From contig CANRCT010000016.1 of the NCBI GenBank assembly GCA_947629175.1, positions 1 to 61,841 of the forward strand: a stretch of DNA of 61,841 nt, read 5' to 3'. How positions within the stretch are numbered: the stretch's first letter is position 1; the number at the start of each line of letters is the position of its first letter. The stretch is from an uncultured Muribaculaceae bacterium (GTDB lineage Bacteria > Bacteroidota > Bacteroidia > Bacteroidales > Muribaculaceae). The position numbers and the translations under genes are program-made. The notes below the pieces were generated by a model. It ran no database searches and was not told the DNA's origin. It saw nothing but the letters and a program-made list of their open reading frames with translations. Positions 21,092 to 61,246 of the stretch are shown here, in pieces.

Positions 21092-22291
21092 TCAGTCCAT
21101 CTCCAGATCAAGATTGAGCACCTCGTGCCAGGGAAGTCCCTGCAGAGAGAGCTGCTCCATGAAGGGATCGGGATCAAACTCCTCGACATTGTGCACTCCC
21201 GGCTTCTTCCAGAGCCCCTTGAGATACATCATGGCGCCTATCATGGCCGGAACGCCCGTGGTGTAGCTGACGGCCTGCATGCCTGTCTCGCGGTAAGCCT
21301 CCTCATGCGAGCAGTTGTTGTAGATGTAGTAAGTGAGGTGCTTGCCATCCTTGTCGAGTCCGGAGATACGGCAGCCTATGGAGGTCTCGCCATGATAGTT
21401 CTCTCCCAGATCCTGCGGATTGGGAAGAACGGCCTTGAGGAACTGCAGCGGCACGATCTTGGTGCCGTTGTAGTCGATCTCGTCGATGCGCGCCATGCCG
21501 ATATCCTGGATCACGCGCAGATGGGTCAGATATTCCTGCCCGAACGTCATCCAGAAGCGTGCGCGCTTTATCGAGGGGAAGTTCTGCACAAGGCTTTCGA
21601 GCTCCTCGTGATAGAGCAGATACGACTCGCGTCCGCCGATATTGGGATACGTCAGATTACGGTGTATCTCGAGCGGCCCGGTGGTCACCCACTTGCCGTC
21701 CTGATAATAGCGGCCGTTCTGCGTGATCTCGCGGATGTTGATCTCCGGGTTGAAGTTGGTGGCGAAAGCCTTGCCGTGATCGCCTGCGTTGCAGTCGACT
21801 ATATCGAGATATTCCATCTCGCTGAAATAATGCTTGGCCGCATAAGCCGTGAACACTCCCGACACTCCCGGATCGAAGCCGCAGCCGAGAATGGCTGTCA
21901 GGCCGGCCTTCTCAAACTTCTCGCGATAGGCCCACTGCCAGGAATATTCGAAGTGGGCTACGTCGCGCGGCTCATAATTGGCCGTGTCGAGGTAGTTGAC
22001 ACCGCATTCCAGACATGCGTCCATGATGGTCAGATCCTGATAAGGAAGAGCCACATTGATGACAATGTCGGGTTTATGACGTCGAAGCAGCGCTACGAGC
22101 TGCTCCACCGAATCAGCATCGACCGAATCGGCCGTCATGTTTTTGGCCCCGATCTTGTCCACTATGGCCTGGCATTTCGACAAGGTGCGCGATGCGAGCA
22201 CGATCTCGCTGAACACCTCAGGATTCTGAGCGCACTTGTAGGCCACTACTGTACCGACGCCGCCGGCACCGATGATTATTACTTTTGACAT
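21092..22291 (-). CDS. Carboxynorspermidine/carboxyspermidine dehydrogenase (saccharopine-dehydrogenase family)
   Basis: A 399-residue NAD(P)-dependent enzyme. The Rossmann motif IIIGAGGVGTVVAYKCAQ at the start and GCGFDPGVSGVFTAYAAKHYF belong to the carboxynorspermidine dehydrogenase branch, which joins aspartate semialdehyde to a diamine in the alternative polyamine pathway used by many gut Bacteroidota. The decarboxylase partner is not in the window. A promoter lies at 22325-22356. Its upstream side is a 1.4-kb gene-free tract. Confidence 0.9.
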   Translation of the reverse strand: MSKVIIIGAGGVGTVVAYKCAQNPEVFSEIVLASRTLSKCQAIVDKIGAKNMTADSVDADSVEQLVALLRRHKPDIVINVALPYQDLTIMDACLECGVNYLDTANYEPRDVAHFEYSWQWAYREKFEKAGLTAILGCGFDPGVSGVFTAYAAKHYFSEMEYLDIVDCNAGDHGKAFATNFNPEINIREITQNGRYYQDGKWVTTGPLEIHRNLTYPNIGGRESYLLYHEELESLVQNFPSIKRARFWMTFGQEYLTHLRVIQDIGMARIDEIDYNGTKIVPLQFLKAVLPNPQDLGENYHGETSIGCRISGLDKDGKHLTYYIYNNCSHEEAYRETGMQAVSYTTGVPAMIGAMMYLKGLWKKPGVHNVEEFDPDPFMEQLSLQGLPWHEVLNLDLEMD

Positions 22292-22356: not shown

Positions 22357-22516
22357 TTTAGCTCCCGGATCAACACGGATTAACATGTCATTTTATCCCG
22401 ACATTTTATCAATATGGCCGTTTCCGGCTATACAAAATATTCACATAGGGGAGTGTCATTACTATCCGCCCCGTTAATACAGTAGTATAAATCATGCATA
22501 TTTTACAGCGAAAACA

Positions 22517-22609
22517 TCAAAAGATAGATACAGGGGTCAAAAGAAGGGTCAAAAAAAGTTCAAAAAGGGTCAAAAGGGGGGGTCAAAAAAAGTTCAAAAG
22601 AGGGTCAAA
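22517..22609. repeat. Array A: G(G/T)TCAAA repeats at about 11-bp steps
   Basis: TCAA cores start at 22517, 22537, 22549, 22560, 22570, 22583, 22594 and 22605, so steps are mostly 10-13 bp with one of 20. Each is followed by an A-run. A-runs repeated once per helical turn are expected to bend DNA. Confidence 0.8.
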
Positions 22610-23098
22610 TTTTTAATAACAATCCTGCCCGCGGCAGCAGTATTTTATTATGGTGGAGGAGATGCTTTCAAAATTTCAGTATCAGATAATATTCATCATA
22701 TTATAAATAAAACAGAAACTACTGATTGTTTCGTCCGACAATAAAAATGTCTCCTTGATATGTCTTCATTCTGTCTTATATGTATTTTATTTTGCTTATT
22801 TTTATATAGTTACATTATATTCCACAAAATATAAATCTGTCTTTCACATATCCTTCATATCTCCTTCTGATTACATATCTCGTAGATAAATACAGATAAA
22901 TATCTTTTGTTACGAAATCATAAAATATAGGTTGACTAAAATATTTTCAAACAAAAACTAAAATTTAGCCTTAAATTGAATCATTCCGTACATTCATATA
23001 TAATGACTCACCCATATATCCATTGTCAGCTTCAACCATGTTTTCTACAACCGACCATCCGGAGCTGGATTTTGCCTAATCAATCTGACTCAATACAT

Positions 23099-23275
23099 GT
23101 TCGAAAAATGTTCGAATAGTGTTCGAATAGTGTTCGAATAGTGTTCGAATAATGTTCGAAAAGAGTTCAAAAGAATTTCAAAAGAAATTCAAAAGGATTT
23201 TGAAAGAACTAAAAGAATTTCAAAGTACCGATAGAATTTAAAAAGGATTAAAAAGGGGTCAAAAAAAGTTCAAAT
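23099..23275. repeat. Array B: GTTCGAATA repeats with an exact 11-bp period, decaying to TTCAAAAG
   Basis: GTTCGA (last copy GTTCAA) starts at 23099, 23110, 23121, 23132, 23143, 23154 and 23165, seven copies exactly 11 bp apart. Degenerate TTCAAAAG-like copies continue at 23177, 23188, 23199, 23208 and 23219, and again as GGTCAAA and GTTCAAA at 23257 and 23268. TTCGAA is itself a palindrome. Because 11 is not a multiple of 3 and TAG stops occur, the array is not a coding repeat. Confidence 0.9.
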
Positions 23276-23472
23276 TAACATATTTATAATCATCACTCAC
23301 ATAAATACAATAATTGTAAATAAACTATATATTCAATTAGTAGTCAACATATACGTACAAAAAGCGTACGAAATTCAACACTGAATTCAACTTATATTTT
23401 CCGATGCTTTATCCGGGATAAAGATTATTGTTTTTAATTCCTTTCCGGAGAATAACTGACATAAGGATTACC

Positions 23473-23565
23473 GGTCACTTAATCGGTCAACTTTTCGGTC
23501 AAAAAATCGGACACCGGTCAAAAAACCGGTCAATAATCCGGTCACCGGTCATATTAAACGGTTCA
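23473..23565. repeat. Array C: CGGTCA repeats spaced 12 and 7 bp
   Basis: GGTCA-type cores start at 23473, 23485, 23497, 23509 (GGACA), 23516, 23528, 23540, 23547 and 23560 (GGTTCA). The steps are 12, 12, 12, 7, 12, 12, 7 and 13 bp. All are on the same strand and share the G(G/T)TC(A/G)A core seen in arrays A and B. Confidence 0.88.
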
Positions 23566-23708
23566 AGAACATTCATTGATATTATTCCGGCAAATATGCA
23601 TTAAATATTTTAATAAGTATACAATTTCATTGCGCTGCGGATCATAATGACGAGGCGCCATGCCGGTATCCGGCACAGCGCCTGCCAATATGGACTGTAT
23701 CTCTAAAG

Positions 23709-24224
23709 TCAGTTGCCTATTATCAGCGAACGGACCGGGAAAAATCCTTTCATGTCTATAAGAGTAGTCATTTTGTTTTCCGTCATCAATATTATTATCT
23801 GATCGAAATAATAACCATCTTTGAACTTATAGAAGCCATAGATAAGCGTGTTGGTCTTTCCTGAAGCGGATTTCATCAGCAACTGAGGTTTACTCTGCAA
23901 TATTTTTCCATATTCAGCGTTGACCCTCTCGCTTTCCGAGGTCTTCTCTTTGACAAATTCGTTCACATAATCCCTGGCTACGCTTGAAGAAGCCTGACTC
24001 TGACAATTGAATATCTGGACTACCTCAAACCGTGCGTCCTTTGAAGATATCGGCAGCCGCGCCATCATATCTTTATATTTCTTATTCTCAAGCATAGCCT
24101 GAGATATATACGTGACCGTAACATTCGGATCATTGACCATTTTTTCGATGAAGACCGGCGAATCTGCCACGCATGGCGATATTATAGCCATGATGAGCGT
24201 AATGATTGTAATTAATCGTTTCAT
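23709..24224 (-). CDS. Small exported protein of an ECF-sigma locus
   Basis: A 171-residue protein with a signal peptide (MKRLITIITLIMAIISPCVA) and a mature part rich in charged residues (VFIEKMVNDPNVTVTYISQAML, KDARFEVVQIF, IIILMTENKMTTLIDMKGFF). The start at 24224 is chosen because the signal peptide begins there; 24272 would overlap the previous gene. It resembles the small periplasmic proteins that follow sigma/anti-sigma pairs in Bacteroidota (DUF4252/DUF6108-like), but I cannot assign a family firmly. It starts 1 bp after the anti-sigma-like gene. Confidence 0.65.
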   Translation of the reverse strand: MKRLITIITLIMAIISPCVADSPVFIEKMVNDPNVTVTYISQAMLENKKYKDMMARLPISSKDARFEVVQIFNCQSQASSSVARDYVNEFVKEKTSESERVNAEYGKILQSKPQLLMKSASGKTNTLIYGFYKFKDGYYFDQIIILMTENKMTTLIDMKGFFPVRSLIIGN

Positions 24225-24225
24225 A

Positions 24226-24726
24226 TTATCTGAAGTTAGGGATTGATGATATCTGATTTTCAATGGATGCATTTACATTCATAGATATTCGGTCGACAGT
24301 CTTGAACGCCGTCAGATTGGCCGCGTCGATACGGCTTTGGGCCATTGCCATGGCTCCGGCGAATATGGTCATGGCCTCGTCGGGATCGGTCACTATACGC
24401 GCTCCACTGCCCTGCCCTCCGCAAGATGCCGTGACCGCCATATCCGGCTCCACATCGCTGCCTGGCAAAATCCATGCACCTACAGTCGCGATGACTGCTA
24501 TTGCGGCCGCTACAGCTGAAATCCATACCGACCAACCCGAAAAACGCCTTCTGACGGGCTTAATTTCGTCCGGAGCAGCCATGGCATATATTTCTCCCAA
24601 GGCACGCATCAGACGGCCGTCAGCCGACTCATCGGCTGCAAGAATGCTCCGGAGCGAGGCTTCCTCTCTACGGTCAGTCTCGCCACCGTAATATTTTTCC
24701 AACAGATAATCCTTAGTCTCCATCAT
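24226..24726 (-). CDS. Single-span membrane protein, probable anti-sigma factor
   Basis: A 166-residue protein with a cytosolic N-terminus (YLLEKYYGGETDRREEASLRSIL), one membrane span at about 65-87 (WSVWISAVAAAIAVIATVGAW) and a periplasmic tail. The N-terminal segment resembles the short helical regions by which small anti-sigma factors hold ECF sigma factors. Its start overlaps the end of the sigma gene by 4 bp, and the exported protein follows after 1 bp. The role is inferred from layout and topology. Confidence 0.7.
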   Translation of the reverse strand: MMETKDYLLEKYYGGETDRREEASLRSILAADESADGRLMRALGEIYAMAAPDEIKPVRRRFSGWSVWISAVAAAIAVIATVGAWILPGSDVEPDMAVTASCGGQGSGARIVTDPDEAMTIFAGAMAMAQSRIDAANLTAFKTVDRISMNVNASIENQISSIPNFR

Positions 24727-25207
24727 GTGAATAATTCTTTAAGTTTTTTGCGTGTACGCGACAATATGGCTCTCACGTTGGCATCGGTCAGCCCCATAAG
24801 GTCGGCTATCTCTTTTGACGACATGCCGGTCATGACGCTCAGTCGCATCACCTGCCTGCTGTTGGCGGGTAGCAAATCGATAGCTCTCATGACGAGTGCG
24901 GCATCGGTCATGCTCTCGGCGCCGGAACATGTCGGGTTTACGATATGTCGGTCGGTTTCGGTATCGATAGCCTGAACAGGCGTCTGCCTGCGCCCTGCTA
25001 TATCCAAAGCCGCATTGCGCACAGCGATATTGAAATAAACGGAAGGCTGTCGACGGTGTCGAGCACGGAGCGACTGCACCATAATTTAAGCAATGCGTCC
25101 TGCACGGCATCGGCGGCCTCCTCACGGTCGGCGAGGATGGCGTAGGCTATACGATACATAACCGGACGGCACTGCTGCGATCTTATTTCAAACTCCTGCT
25201 GTGTCAT
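24723..25207 (-). pseudogene. ECF RNA polymerase sigma factor with a frameshift between regions 2 and 4
   Basis: The first frame from MTQQEFEIRSQQCR gives region 2 (AYAILADREEAADAVQDALLKLW) and reads through VLDTVDSLP. The frame then breaks near 25040-25051, and the second frame continues VYFNIAVRNAALDIAGR and region 4 (LPANSRQVMRLSVMTGMSSKEIADLMGL). One missing base (or two extra) at that point explains the break. The rest of both domains is intact, and the anti-sigma-like gene follows with a 4-bp overlap, so the damage is recent or is a sequence error. Confidence 0.85.
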
Positions 25208-25255
25208 TACATATAATACGACTTTACCGCGCCATGTTTTGTGACAACACAGACA

Positions 25256-25297
25256 GAAAAATGAGTCTGCCACTCCCTCGTCGGGAAAGGCAGACCC
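25256..25297 (-). terminator. Intrinsic terminator after gapA
   Basis: On the minus strand a GGTCTGCC...GGCAGACT hairpin (arms 25265-25271 and 25289-25295) is followed by CATTTTTC, the expected stem plus T-run, 36 bp beyond the gapA stop. Confidence 0.75.
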
Positions 25298-29399: not shown

Positions 29400-30686
29400 A
29401 TGGAAAAACTGATGCAATATGTATGGCAGCATCGTCTGTGGCGTCAAAACGACATGCGCACAGTCGACGGACGACGCGTCCAGGTCATCGACCCCGGCCG
29501 CCTCAACACCGACGCCGGCCCCGACTTCTTCAATGCCAAGATATGCATCGACGGGCGCATGTGGGCCGGAAACGTAGAGATACATGTCAAAGCCAGCGAC
29601 TGGCACCGCCACGGCCATTCGTCGGACAGCGCCTACGATTCGGTAGTGCTGCATGTGGTGGATCGCGACGACGCGGTCATACGCCGACGCGACGGCCAGA
29701 TCATACCACAGCTGCGCATGCCCTGCGCGGCCGACCTCCATATCAAGTACGGCGCTCTTGTGGGAGCCGCCGACCGCGGATTGCCGTGCGCCGCAGCCAT
29801 AAAGGATATGCCGCCCGTATACCTTACCGACTGGATATCCACCCTTGGCTTCGAACGGCTCTACAATAAGGCCGAGCGACTGGAGGAGACACGCCGTCGG
29901 TTCGGAGGCGACTGGGAGCAGGCCGTATATGTCAGCGTGGCGCGATGCCTCGGATTCAGCACCAACAGCGAGCCTTTCGAAAGGCTCGCCATGAGTCTGC
30001 CGCTTATGTTCATCGGCAAGCATGCCGACTCTCCTTTGGCTGTGGAGGCGCTTCTTTTCGGCCAGAGCGGTCTTCTTGACAAATATAAGGATACTGATCC
30101 ATATGCCGCACGTTTGAGCCGGGAATACGCTTTTCTGGCCCATAAATTCGGTCTTCGGGCTCCCGAAAGCCTCGGATGGAAAATGGCGCGGATGCGTCCG
30201 GCCAACTTCCCCTACAGGCGCATAGCTGTGCTCGCAGCCATGCTGCGCTCAGGCTTCAGGATGACCTCTCGCCTTCTTGCCATACGCACGATAGACGATG
30301 CCATGACCATATTCAATCCGCCCATGGAAAGCTACTGGGCCACACGATATGTCTTCGGTCAGGGGGGCGAACGTCAGCTGCGGGCCATGAGCCGCGAATC
30401 AGTCATAATAATGACCATCAACTGCGTGGCTCCTCTCATGATGGCCTACGGCACTCTCCACGGCGACACATCGCTCACCGACCGTGCGTCGGATCTCCTT
30501 CACTCGCTTCCAGCCGAAAGCAACAGTATAGTGACGATGTTTGAATCATCGGGAATGCATGCATCCGATGCATTCATGAGTCAGGCCATGGTGGAACTGC
30601 GACGCTGCTACTGCGAACAGCGCAAATGCCTCTATTGCCGCATAGGTCACCGCATGCTCGCCGAAAACGCACGCCGCAAGGAATAA
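29400..30686 (+). CDS. DUF2851 family protein
   Basis: A 428-residue protein of the Bacteroidota family DUF2851: MQYVWQHRLWRQNDMRTVDG, PGRLNTDAGPDFFNAKI and WAGNVEIHVKASDWHRHGH are its signature. The Asp/Glu/Lys pattern around GNVEIHVKASDW resembles a nuclease-like core, but no activity is established. The C-terminus has a Cys-rich stretch (CYCEQRKCLYCRIGHRML). The start at 29400 follows the divergent promoter by about 20 bp; an ATG at 29376 would overlap the -7 box. It converges on asnA. Confidence 0.88.
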   Translation: MEKLMQYVWQHRLWRQNDMRTVDGRRVQVIDPGRLNTDAGPDFFNAKICIDGRMWAGNVEIHVKASDWHRHGHSSDSAYDSVVLHVVDRDDAVIRRRDGQIIPQLRMPCAADLHIKYGALVGAADRGLPCAAAIKDMPPVYLTDWISTLGFERLYNKAERLEETRRRFGGDWEQAVYVSVARCLGFSTNSEPFERLAMSLPLMFIGKHADSPLAVEALLFGQSGLLDKYKDTDPYAARLSREYAFLAHKFGLRAPESLGWKMARMRPANFPYRRIAVLAAMLRSGFRMTSRLLAIRTIDDAMTIFNPPMESYWATRYVFGQGGERQLRAMSRESVIIMTINCVAPLMMAYGTLHGDTSLTDRASDLLHSLPAESNSIVTMFESSGMHASDAFMSQAMVELRRCYCEQRKCLYCRIGHRMLAENARRKE

Positions 30687-30697
30687 ACCACGCTATA

Positions 30698-31732
30698 TCA
30701 TAAAAGCTCTATTCCGGCCGCACGGCAGGCCTCGATCTGCTCCGGAGGCCATATGCTTGCCTGCACCTCGCCTATATGGGCTTTCTGGAGCATGAACATG
30801 CACAGACGGCTCTGTCCTATGCCGCCTCCGATCGAGAAGGGGAGCTCGCCGCGCAGAAGCGACGCGTGAAAGGGGAGTGAGGCACGTTCTTCACAACCAC
30901 GCAGTGAAAGCTGCCGGCGGAGTGATTCCGGACTGACACGAATACCCATCGACGATATCTCGAAAGATCGGCCGAGCACGCTGTCCCACAGTATTATGTC
31001 GCCGTTAAGACCGAAATGGCCCCCTTCGGTGGGAGTGATCCAGTCGTCATAGTCGGGCGCGCGTCCATCGTGGGGTTCGCCTCCGTCGATAGGGGCGCCG
31101 ATGCCTATGAGGAACACAGCTCCATAGCGGCGCGCCGCCTCGTCCTCGCGTTCTTTGGCCGACAGTCCGGGATATAGCCGCAGAAGATCATCGGCATGCA
31201 GGAAAGTGATTTTTTCGGGCAGGCGGGGAGTTATGTGCGGAAAACGTGAATAGACAGTCGCTTCGGTAGCCTTCAGCGAGGCATATATTTTTTCCACGGT
31301 GGCGCGCAGAAAGTCGAGATTGCGGTCCGATTCGTTTATGGTCATCTCCCAGTCCCACTGATCGACGTAAAGAGAGTGGAGATTGTCGAGATCCTCGTCG
31401 GCTCTGATGGCATTCATGTCGGTATAAAGTCCGAATCCCGGAGCTATACCGTAGGCCCCGAGTTTCATTCTCTTCCATTTGGCAAGAGAATGCACCACCT
31501 CGGCCCGACGGCCGCCCACGGCCTTTACCTCGAAGCTTACAGGACGCTCCACTCCGTTGAGATCGTCGTTCAACCCGGTCCCGGCGAGCACGAACAGCGG
31601 GGCAGTGACACGCCGCAGATTGAGATTGGCCGACAGACGCTGTTGGAAATCATCCTTAATCATCTTGATGGCAACTTCCGTCGTTTCGGGAAGAAGCTTG
31701 CGCTTGTAGCTTTTTGGTATGATCAGTGACAT
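30698..31732 (-). CDS. asnA: Aspartate-ammonia ligase (asparagine synthetase A)
   Basis: A 344-residue class II synthetase-like enzyme that makes asparagine from aspartate, ammonia and ATP. Typical AsnA segments are LNLRRVTAPLFV, LNGVERPVSFEV, EVVHSLAKWKR, YVDQWDWE and GGGIGQSRLCMFML (motif 3). It is transcribed alone from a good promoter at 31761-31791 and converges on the DUF2851 gene with an 11-bp gap. Confidence 0.96.
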   Translation of the reverse strand: MSLIIPKSYKRKLLPETTEVAIKMIKDDFQQRLSANLNLRRVTAPLFVLAGTGLNDDLNGVERPVSFEVKAVGGRRAEVVHSLAKWKRMKLGAYGIAPGFGLYTDMNAIRADEDLDNLHSLYVDQWDWEMTINESDRNLDFLRATVEKIYASLKATEATVYSRFPHITPRLPEKITFLHADDLLRLYPGLSAKEREDEAARRYGAVFLIGIGAPIDGGEPHDGRAPDYDDWITPTEGGHFGLNGDIILWDSVLGRSFEISSMGIRVSPESLRRQLSLRGCEERASLPFHASLLRGELPFSIGGGIGQSRLCMFMLQKAHIGEVQASIWPPEQIEACRAAGIELL

Positions 31733-31760
31733 ATTTTTGACGTTTTGCTATGTGTGCATG

Positions 31761-31791
31761 CAAATTTACTACATTATGATTATATATCAAA
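31761..31791 (-). promoter_or_regulatory. Promoter of asnA
   Basis: On the minus strand TTTG (31788-31791), a 19-bp spacer and TAAATTTG (31761-31768) form a full Bacteroidota promoter 29 bp before the start codon. Confidence 0.8.
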
Positions 31792-32316
31792 GTTTTCAAT
31801 AAATATATAATTTATATAAGTTACATAGCGCCCTCTTACGTTACATACTGGTCACCACTTCTTCGGGCCGTCTCTGCGGGATTTCTTACAACGATATTTT
31901 CTTATTTGAAAAATTAAAATCTTCAAAAAAACAAATCCGAAGAAAAATAATAACCGATGTAAATAGCGGCAATAACTTTTAGACCATATTCTTGCATCAT
32001 AAGGTTATTGAACTCAAGTAGAGCGATATCTATACTTTATCAACATCCCTGATAGCTGAAATTCAGGTGTTAGACATGTTTATCTACACTGTGTTGATAA
32101 CCGTCTCAGTTAATAAAAAGCAGCTTTTCACGGTGTGGAAAAATGCTGATAAAGGGTATGAAAAAGGTTATAAAAACTCTCGTCATCTTTTTTGCAATGG
32201 ATATGGCTGTGCTGCATTGTAAAAACGGGGATGATATGCAAATATATTTGCTGAAAAGTTGTCGGACTGTTTTCAACAACCTTTCAACACCTTTTTACAG
32301 CAATACTGACATCGGA
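31792..32316. other. Gene-free AT-rich stretch with clustered DnaA-box-like 9-mers, candidate origin
   Basis: About 525 bp without a gene. Within 32037-32152 lie five 9-mers one or two bases from TTATCCACA: TTATCAACA (32037), TTATCTACA (32080), TGTTGATAA (32092, reverse), TGTGGAAAA (32134, reverse) and TGCTGATAA (32144, reverse). A very AT-rich segment (31781-31824) next to it could unwind. The 3' end (32250-32300) resembles the region after upp. Assignment as oriC is inference; see findings. Confidence 0.5.
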
Positions 32317-33267
32317 TTATTTCGACATCTCAAGCATCCTGACGATGGGGCGCCGGGCGCGCTCGGCCAAGGAAGTGTCTACCTCCACTGCCGGCGACAT
32401 GTCGGCAAGACAGCGGCGAAGCTTTTCGAGGGTATTGAGTTTCATGTAGGCGCATTCGTTGCATCCGCATGAATCCGACGGGGGAGCGGCTATGAACTCT
32501 TTGTCGGGGCACTGGCGGCGCATCTGATGCAGTATGCCGCTCTCCGTGGCTACTATAAAGCGCTTGGCATGACTGTCGCGGGCATGCTGCAGCAACACTG
32601 CCGTGGAGCCGACCTTGTCGGCTATGGTCTGGAGCGGTTTCTTGCATTCGGGGTGCACGAGGATCTCGGCGTCGGGCATCTGTCTCTTCAGATCGAGTAT
32701 TTTCTCTATTGAGAAGCGTTCATGCACATGGCAGGCGCCGTCCCAGAGCACCATATCGCGTCCGGTAAGGCTGTTGATATACTCTCCGAGATTGCGGTCG
32801 GGCCCGAATATTATCTTTTCGTCAGCCGGCAGAGAGTTGACTATTTTGAGAGCGTTGCCTGAGGTGACCACTATGTCGGTGAGAGCCTTGACGGCCGCCG
32901 TAGTATTTACGTAGCTTATCACGGTGTGTCCCGGATGCCGGCGGATGAATTCCTCGAATTGCGGGGCGGGACAGCTGTCGGCAAGCGAACATCCGGCTTC
33001 CGGATCGGGCACGAGCACGGTTTTTTCTGGGCAGAGTATCTTGGCAGTCTCTCCCATGAAGTGTACGCCGCACATCACTATCACCTTCTGGTCGACATCC
33101 TGGGCTATACGGGCAAGTGCCAGCGAATCGCCTATGAAATCAGCCACATCCTGTATTTCAGGATTGGTGTAGTAATGAGCCATTATCACCGCGTCTTTCT
33201 CTTTCTTGAGTCTGCTGATCTCTTCTTGCAGACGGGCAGTCACTTCGGGATTGTTACTGACATCCAT
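32317..33267 (-). CDS. nadA: Quinolinate synthase NadA
   Basis: A 316-residue iron-sulfur enzyme that condenses iminoaspartate with dihydroxyacetone phosphate in NAD synthesis. It shows HYYTNPEIQDVADFIGDSLAL, GVHFMGETAKIL, the cluster cysteine regions PEAGCSLADSC, DGACHVHERFS and SCGCNECAYMKLNT, and HPECKKP. No nadB or nadC is adjacent. A long leader of about 200 nt may precede it (see 33268). Confidence 0.96.
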   Translation of the reverse strand: MDVSNNPEVTARLQEEISRLKKEKDAVIMAHYYTNPEIQDVADFIGDSLALARIAQDVDQKVIVMCGVHFMGETAKILCPEKTVLVPDPEAGCSLADSCPAPQFEEFIRRHPGHTVISYVNTTAAVKALTDIVVTSGNALKIVNSLPADEKIIFGPDRNLGEYINSLTGRDMVLWDGACHVHERFSIEKILDLKRQMPDAEILVHPECKKPLQTIADKVGSTAVLLQHARDSHAKRFIVATESGILHQMRRQCPDKEFIAAPPSDSCGCNECAYMKLNTLEKLRRCLADMSPAVEVDTSLAERARRPIVRMLEMSK

Positions 33268-33483
33268 GATTTATATTATGTAGGATATAAGATTTACTAT
33301 ATAATACCGAAACAAGAGTAATAATGTCTGTAGGAAATGTGGATAACGTTTAATGACGTATTGTCCTTAATGACATTATTTACATGTTTCTTACACTGAC
33401 AACAGTGTTATAAACATCTGTTCGTGCTGCAAGGCAGCGGTTTAGACGGTTTATTAACATGATGTCAATTTCTTGCAAAGTTA
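33268..33483 (-). promoter_or_regulatory. Long nadA leader with -7 box, hairpins and a perfect DnaA-box 9-mer
   Basis: On the minus strand TAACTTTG at 33476-33483 is the nearest clear -7 box, giving a leader of about 200 nt. The leader contains the hairpins GCTGC/GCAGC (33426-33438) and ACACTG/CAGTGT (33393-33408). TGTGGATAA at 33338-33346 equals TTATCCACA on the minus strand, the canonical DnaA box. It could be a regulatory leader, part of an origin region, or both. The -33 element is weak. Confidence 0.4.
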
Positions 33484-33582
33484 ATAAATATTTGAGAATA
33501 CGGCGTGATAACGGGTGAAAAATACTTGTAGAATACCGGATAATAAGTTATGTTTTATCTTCCGGTCTTATCCGGTTCCGGC

Positions 33583-33638
33583 AAAAAAACAACATGCTGA
33601 AAAGCTGTTGAATTGATTTCAACATACTTTTCAACATG
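33583..33638 (-). terminator. Terminator after upp
   Basis: On the minus strand CATGTTGAAAAG (33627-33638) pairs with CTTTTCAGCATG (33593-33604) with one mismatch, and a run of seven T follows at 33583-33589. Confidence 0.65.
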
Positions 33639-33665
33639 TTTACTGACATTGATGCGAAGCCAGGC

Positions 33666-34316
33666 TTACTCCTTCACTCCGTAGGCAAGATCGCCGGCAT
33701 CGCCCAGACCTGGCACTATATAGGAATGGGCGTTGATCTCATCGTCGACTGTCGCTAACCAGAGAGTGGTGTCGGCCGGGAAGGTGCGCTCCACATATTC
33801 TATCGCCTGACGCGAAGCTATGACTGACGCCACGTGGAGACGTGCAGGATTGCCTTTCGTAAGGAGAGCGCGGTAGCTGAGCTCCATCGACGAACCTGTG
33901 GCGAGCATCGGATCGACGATAACAAGTGTCTTGCCGTCGAGCCGCGGCGAAGCTATGTATTCTATGAACACGTCGAAATTATCTTTTTCCCTGTATTTGC
34001 GATAAGCCGAGACGAAAGCGTTTTCGGCATCGTCGAAATACGACAGGAATCCGTGATGGAAAGGCACTCCGGCGCGGAATATTGTGGCGAGCACCACTTT
34101 GTCGGCTATATTGCGGCAGGTGGCGACGCCAAGCGGAGTGGTGACGTCCACTTTGTCGTAAGTCAATGTCTTGCTTATCTCATAAGCCATTATCTCTCCT
34201 ATGCGTTCGAGATTTCTGCGGAAGCGCATCCGGTCGGTCTGACGGTCGACCGACCGCAGTTCGGCCACATACTGGTTGATAAGCGAGGGTGTCTCTTCGA
34301 AATTGATTACTTTCAT
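33666..34316 (-). CDS. upp: Uracil phosphoribosyltransferase
   Basis: A 216-residue PRPP-dependent salvage enzyme that converts uracil to UMP. The PRPP-binding loop is LVIVDPMLATGSSMELSYRAL, and the C-terminal uracil-binding end IVPGLGDAGDLAYGVKE is complete. RAGVPFHHGFLSYFDDAE is typical of the family. It is followed by a probable terminator. Confidence 0.93.
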   Translation of the reverse strand: MKVINFEETPSLINQYVAELRSVDRQTDRMRFRRNLERIGEIMAYEISKTLTYDKVDVTTPLGVATCRNIADKVVLATIFRAGVPFHHGFLSYFDDAENAFVSAYRKYREKDNFDVFIEYIASPRLDGKTLVIVDPMLATGSSMELSYRALLTKGNPARLHVASVIASRQAIEYVERTFPADTTLWLATVDDEINAHSYIVPGLGDAGDLAYGVKE

Positions 34317-43961: not shown

Positions 43962-43977
43962 TGTTTCACGTGGAACA
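43962..43977. other. parS-like ParB-binding site
   Basis: TGTTTCACGTGGAACA fits the 16-bp consensus TGTTNCACGTGNAACA recognised by chromosomal ParB. It starts 1 bp after the mnmG stop codon, outside any coding region. No other copy matching the consensus was noticed in the window. Chromosomal parS sites normally cluster around the origin. Confidence 0.8.
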
Positions 43978-60882: not shown

Positions 60883-61073
60883 GTCTGAATGATCGCTATC
60901 GTATATGGTTTATAAAACACAAATGTAGTGAAATTCCTGCAATCTGCCCCTATCTTCCCCCAAAATTCCCCAAAACCGACTGAAGCTGTTGTAATACTTT
61001 ATGATTGTGCGAGTGAAAATAACGTAATGTCTTCTTGCATACACAAGTGGAATGCACGGATGTAAAGCGGTAC

Positions 61074-61246
61074 TTCGCTTAAACTTCGCTTAAATTTTGC
61101 TTTAACAGGATAGAGAAAATTCAGTCATTTGAAATGTAACACAATTGATATTAGTGAGTTATGCTTTTAGTCGGATGGGGATGTTCACTTAAATCTCACA
61201 TTTGTTCGCTTAAATCATACATTATTTCACTTAGATGAAAAAGGTC
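61074..61246. repeat. Phased TTC(G/A)CTTAAA repeats in a gene-free spacer
   Basis: TTCGC, TTCGC and TTTGC cores, each followed by TTAAA-like bases, start at 61074, 61085 and 61096 (11-bp steps). A second group starts at 61184, 61205 and 61226 as three 21-bp tandem units. The spacer 60883-61272 has no gene; the remainder (60883-61070) shows nothing that I can name. Confidence 0.75.

Follow-up and report, generated by a model that had tools for sequence, protein, structure and literature searches.

The closest described systems to the locus reported here are intergenic tandem repeats of short units. Arrays of the heptamer TAACTGA have been described in Beggiatoaceae, in some Cyanobacteria, and in five Bacteroidetes; the main genome contains 169 sets, most of which lie just upstream of start codons (PMC4679880). 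The introduction to the same paper summarizes a survey of minisatellites and long simple sequence repeats between bacterial genes, with units of 1–11 nucleotides. BrickBuilt, from Porphyromonas gingivalis, is a minisatellite within a miniature inverted-repeat transposable element (MITE); its units are 23 nucleotides long, its ends are inverted repeats, and ATCC 33277 carries 19 copies of it (PMC4596501). A literature search returned no paper on intergenic tandem repeats in Muribaculaceae, and TTCGAA was absent among the matches listed for 11-bp intergenic tandem repeats.

We analyzed a 61,841-bp stretch of DNA (the window) from an uncultured member of the Muribaculaceae that contains a conspicuous array of 11-bp units. 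Our analysis makes it likely that this array is a degenerate minisatellite, private to its lineage, that arose by local duplication followed by decay and probably has no function. Like the surveyed repeats, it has a short unit arranged head to tail and occurs sporadically between lineages; unlike them, it is degenerate rather than perfect, and its period lies at the top of the 1–11 nucleotide range. The TAACTGA arrays are similar in that seven conserved bases recur head to tail between genes, also in some Bacteroidetes. Those arrays, however, occur as many sets near start codons, whereas here there is one segment, in which the main array lies ~800 bp and a companion (array A, below) ~240 bp from the nearest start codon (at 22291), and the 11-bp step is made up of seven constant and four variable bases. 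With BrickBuilt, the locus shares tandem repeats that lie between genes in noncoding DNA of a Bacteroidetes chromosome and are flanked by nonrepetitive sequence, but its units are 11 bp long, its ends show no significant inverted repeats, and it is matched once in the genome. An earlier note on this DNA had stated that the array matches no familiar element class from Bacteroidota. That was too strong: degenerate minisatellites between genes form a recognized class of element, in Bacteroidetes as well (PMC4596501, PMC4679880), and the present array is an ordinary, if eye-catching, case.

The main array (23098–23173, plus strand) consists of six TGTTCGAAWAR units and one AGTTCAAAAGA unit with a period of exactly 11 bp. 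Exact copies of GTTCGAA start at 23099, 23110, 23121, 23132, 23143, and 23154 (span 23099–23160). The earlier note had described seven GTTCGA units at an 11-bp step; the step is correct but the count is not, as GTTCGAA occurs six times and the seventh unit, at 23165, reads GTTCAAA. On a strict 11-bp grid from 23098, the units are, in order, TGTTCGAAAAA, three copies of TGTTCGAATAG, TGTTCGAATAA, TGTTCGAAAAG, AGTTCAAAAGA, ATTTCAAAAGA, AATTCAAAAGG, and ATTTTGAAAGA. Units with TTTCAAA, ATTCAAA, and TTTTGAA follow the one at 23165, and the grid is kept until ~23207, past which it is lost. The decaying tail (23174–23275, plus strand), with units containing TTTCAAAAGA, ATTCAAAAGG, TTTTGAAAGA, and the like, ends in a GGGTCAAAAAAAGTTCAAA block at 23256–23274. 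Both the TTCGAA palindrome in each core and the gradual decay into TTCAAAAG units, as had been noted, are borne out. All six plus-strand copies of GTTCGAA in the window lie in the main array, and the minus strand has one copy.

As previously claimed, such an array is not expected by chance. In the best 60-base stretch of the 1257-bp segment that contains it (see below), 54 of the 60 bases matched at period 11; 300 dinucleotide-preserving shuffles of that segment averaged 26.9 matches and never exceeded 33. Tandem Repeats Finder scored the main array at 96–108. The main array thus consists of head-to-tail copies of one unit above the chance level, which is the mark of a minisatellite. Variation among the six pure units is confined to the four bases outside GTTCGAA, in two columns, an outcome that by simple arithmetic has a chance of ~0.11; some constraint on the GTTCGAA core of the pure units is conceivable. 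The array was also rightly held to be noncoding, in that it has no credible frame. The longest open reading frame extending into it is 47 amino acids long, and a hidden small protein was rejected as an explanation because none of the four short frames of the segment, this one included, matched Pfam at an E value of 0.1.

The segment in question (22392–23648, with ends placed to within about 20 bp) is ~1.26 kb long, has a GC content of 31%, and is devoid of credible genes. It includes the GC-poorest of 4409 1-kb intervals taken in 100-base steps over 462 kb of the genome. To its left is a saccharopine dehydrogenase-like gene (21092–22291, minus strand), whose start faces the segment, and to its right is a minus-strand gene (23709–24272) whose end faces the segment and whose product has a borderline match to DUF4252 in Pfam (23.5 bits, against a curated cut-off of 23.9). 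Beyond that, a gene for an ECF sigma factor (24723–25273, minus strand) seems to be split, with regions 2 and 4 in two overlapping frames, and is thus either frameshifted or subject to an assembly error. At the left end of the segment (22417–22479, minus strand) the sequence weakly resembles Flavo-1, an RNA family of Bacteroidetes (22.9 bits against a gathering score of 42, E = 0.058).

Two further arrays accompany the main one. Array A (22534–22609, plus strand; family D2) is composed of GGTCAAAA and GTTCAAAA units spaced 10–13 bp apart, with a larger period of 34 bp and a score of 124. Array C (23470–23556, plus strand; family D3) has (A)CCGGTCAAAA and ATCGGTCA units, mostly at 12-bp steps. 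Arrays A, main, and C have related cores in a single orientation within 1.1 kb, and GGTCAAA, between 22300 and 23720, occurs eight times on the plus strand and not at all on the minus strand. Nor are the arrays independent of one another, because the 19-base word GGGTCAAAAAAAGTTCAAA occurs on the plus strand twice in array A (22546–22564 and 22580–22598) and again in the main array's tail (23256–23274), the successive copies being 34 and 676 bp apart. A pattern of three KTCAAAA units spaced 11 bp apart, with up to three mismatches allowed, gave nine matches in the whole genome, eight of which were in this segment, and the backwards control gave one. The sole match outside the segment had three mismatches, the same number as the control match.

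How does the corresponding region look in related genomes? The first flanking gene of G012 and G005, the two nearest relatives, is 97% identical. BLAST homology to both ends at window position 22370 and restarts at 23653, and in both genomes the two matches are merely 23 bases apart; the same gene pair is separated by a short spacer that has no segment. The comparison is based on the plus-strand loci L012 and L013 and on a BLAST of all 29 relative loci taken whole, of which two had matches beyond the first gene and several of the others hold little sequence there. Searched by BLASTN at an E value of 0.001, with at most 12 first-look candidates scored per genome, the segment was matched once, in its own genome alone, among the 34 genomes of the genus, the 33 others being unmatched. 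The second gene had strong matches in the same 34 genomes to G005 and G012 only, plus three weak ones (E values of 5e-5 to 6e-4). Within the reach of our searches, the segment is thus confined to this lineage. In G018, a member of the same genus, a 12-bp array of five CTGCAAACAAAA units (locus L033) precedes the orthologue of the 21092–22291 gene by no more than ~250 bp; its unit is unrelated.

The genome contains other intergenic arrays. In 462 kb of it, 13 arrays (four from the segment) were reported in 65.6 kb called noncoding, and none in each of three shuffles. The corresponding figures were nine in 60.6 kb for five other genomes of the genus and three in 53.2 kb for five genomes from other families of the order, with none in the shuffles (three each) save that G007, G024, and G028 each had a single array in one of theirs; these densities are only indicative because the gene caller was rough and misses low-GC genes, so that "noncoding" runs of 3–7 kb are probably genes. 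Other intergenic units in the sampled genome included TCACATCCG, TAGCTATAA, GTCGGACGG, and CTTTCAATCTCACCGA, and most units were specific to one locus. By contrast with the other units, a TCGGA word recurs: arrays containing it, at ~9-bp steps, were seen at three places in the genome (16722–16791 and ~19290–19315 in L110 and 1170–1244 in L100), and G012 also has an array containing TCGGA, beside a TAGCTA array. The window itself has two short arrays in AT-rich DNA at 61072–61233, one of 11-bp ACTTCGCTTAA units and one of 21-bp TGTTCACTTAAATCACACATT units. Two arrays were compared with the close relatives: a TCACAT array is missing from both G005 and G012, and the TAGCTA array is common to this genome and G012 but missing from G005. 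These differences are compatible with fast turnover of minisatellites. Together with the uniform center of the main array, its graded decay, and the lack of a BLASTN match in 33 other genomes of the genus, they lend support to the proposal of the earlier note that the array grew by local duplication.

Is the 11-bp period a property of GTTCGAA? Three copies of the word with free gaps of 0–16 bp were found in 14 of 393 genomes of the order (our genome included, as the sole member of its genus in the sample), and the backwards control was found in eight of the 393. Among the places listed, the periods of these clusters were 7, 8, 9, 21, and 22, and 11 was seen solely in our genome. Viral contigs gave 86 matching stretches; 80 loci were read, and the steps were equal in 44 of them, ranging from 7 to 23 bp, with three at 11 bp and 11 at 20 bp. 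Given such a variety of periods, both within the order and among viral contigs, we rejected the idea that 11 bp is tied to the word. The exact three-unit pattern at 11 bp matched 54 stretches in GTDB genomes of many phyla, a scan that could not reveal a preferred period because the pattern itself fixed it.

Several other clusters were met in these searches. G244 and G390, of the same order, have GTTCGAA clusters at 66 and 16 pattern matches, respectively (for example, L165 and L166), and thus a genome-wide family; at the places listed, the step is mostly 9 bp and the units are of the GTTCGAARG type. Fourteen of the 54 GTDB stretches come from a single genome, Prolixibacteraceae UBA10471, and have direct TAGTTCGAAGG-type units at 11 bp (L044, L047, L053, L056, L058, L067, L069, L073, L080, L083, L087, L088, L092, and L093). 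In 12 of these stretches, inverted CTTCGAATAAC-type units come after the direct ones, the other two being cut by Ns or by the end of the locus; the stretches are a dispersed family with an inverted-repeat layout. Palindromic GTTCGAAC triplets at 11 bp were seen in RB_MAG_00020 (L048, L057, L065, L070, L081, L084, L091, L094, and L095) and in Gracilibacteria (L052, L054, and L082). These triplets may lie inside genes, as one frame is open through ~270 bp around the triplet in 11 of the 12 loci.

An alternative to a minisatellite is that the array is a cluster of protein-binding sites built on a GNTCRAAA-type core, in which units one helical turn apart would allow several copies of the protein to load on one face, possibly as an anchor ~8–10 kb from the replication origin. 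The exact 11-bp step and the palindromic core would suit such a cluster, and an oriC-like zone lies ~8.5 kb away. This zone (30500–33700) has the minimum of the cumulative GC skew at 30829, AT-rich and apparently noncoding DNA at ~31750–32310 and ~33260–33660, and two DnaA-box-like sequences on the minus strand, TTTTCCACA at 32134 and TTATCCACA at 33338. Protein sites would likewise also give three clusters that have related cores and lie on one strand within 1.1 kb, and to that extent these clusters count against a minisatellite. But the one match in the genome outside the segment stands at the control level with its three mismatches, none of the 33 other genomes of the genus had a BLASTN match, and the phasing is loose, with steps of 10–13 bp in array A and mostly 12 bp in array C. 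A parS-like site, moreover, lies elsewhere, at 43962–43977; parS itself was dismissed as a candidate for the array, the only match in the window within three mismatches being the one at 43962, with one mismatch. We therefore regard a site cluster as unlikely. The multi-site landing platform suggested in the earlier note gains little from a pattern restricted to essentially one genomic segment and from a word that is not tied to 11-bp spacing. Because the three arrays share their core and orientation, we do give a low probability to such a platform, and it is distinctly improbable that they are putative sites of an unrecognized GNTCRAAA-core protein making up a lineage-specific nucleoprotein anchor ~8–10 kb from the origin. 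The suggestion of an iteron-like element also gains little. Plasmid iterons are direct repeats with a step of about a helical turn, as here, but they are typically some 17–22 bp long and sit next to the rep gene of a replicon, whereas the contig that carries this array also has housekeeping genes and, away from the array, an oriC-like zone. A blastn comparison with 72,556 plasmid records gave no match, and the seven frames searched against Pfam between 18.8 and 25.3 kb had no replication initiator domain. A LexA box of the GTTC-N7-GTTC type was rejected because no match to the LexA DNA-binding domain (PF01726) was found in the genome, a domain that was matched in 10 of 14 control genomes.

Other readings concern mobility, RNA, and DNA shape. 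A ~1.26-kb AT-rich noncoding segment with internal tandem arrays, missing from the same spacer in two relatives, resembles a MITE, a non-autonomous mobile element, that harbors a minisatellite in the manner of BrickBuilt. Its ends, however, do not: their best inverted match scores 8, a value reached by 627 of 2000 shuffled pairs, and their best direct match scores 7, reached by 856 of 2000. Terminal inverted repeats were accordingly discarded as not significant, and a MITE is highly improbable for a segment that is not multi-copy, being matched once in its own genome (E = 0.001). A mobile origin was likewise rejected in that neither a plasmid nor a phage match was obtained. A plus-strand transcript of 23085–23285 would form a long hairpin from its self-complementary units (z = −6.3, with none of 200 shuffles as stable), the minus strand folds less well (z = −2.0, nine of 200 as stable), and the array DNA also folds better than its shuffles (z = −3.1). 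That the array outdoes shuffles both as plus-strand RNA and as DNA is a point against a simple minisatellite. Yet the self-pairing of the unit (five consecutive pairs, G-U allowed) is equaled by 1421 of 20,000 random 11-mers, so the hairpin would be one mild coincidence multiplied by copying. Moreover, both flanking genes are on the minus strand, promoter-like matches number nine against a shuffled mean of 8.5, and the terminator-like matches (three against 1.0 in shuffles) are all outside the array. An RNA gene was rejected because all four Rfam matches (E values up to 1) were below the gathering score, and an RNA element is in our estimation extremely improbable. Finally, a period close to the helical repeat could signify a structural bend produced by helically phased A-tracts, and an 11-bp periodicity has been reported for bacterial noncoding DNA (PMC516772). 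In a wedge model with assumed parameters, arrays A and C exceed most shuffles (values reached by seven and one of 200, respectively), and all four pieces tested are in the top 1.1% of bend values for the window. The curvature of the main array, on the other hand, was reached by 66 of 200 shuffles and that of the tail by 82 of 200, and the main array therefore does not exceed its shuffles as phased A-tracts would; its absolute rank in the top 1% of a GC-richer window reflects AT content, because shuffles bend as much. The bend proposed in the earlier note is thus left with a very small chance.

A minisatellite that grew by local copying, our preferred explanation, could have come about as follows. 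An AT-rich noncoding segment would have been present at this spacer in the present lineage, or else would have been lost by the ancestor of G012 and G005. A GNTCRAAA-type word inside the segment would then have been copied head to tail to give three arrays on the same strand, most simply by replication slippage or by short template switches. The GTTCGAATAGT run is probably the newest array because it is the most uniform, and its downstream side would have been blurred by point mutations and small indels. The array can be explained in this way without any function.

The locus may therefore serve as a calibration case: a striking periodic, palindromic-looking array that beats every shuffle and has a hairpin at z = −6, yet is explained by local copying of one unit. 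Were a binding platform to prove correct instead, it would add a lineage-specific anchor close to the origin. For the genome at large, the main array is accompanied by several other intergenic arrays, and both of those compared with close relatives differ between them.
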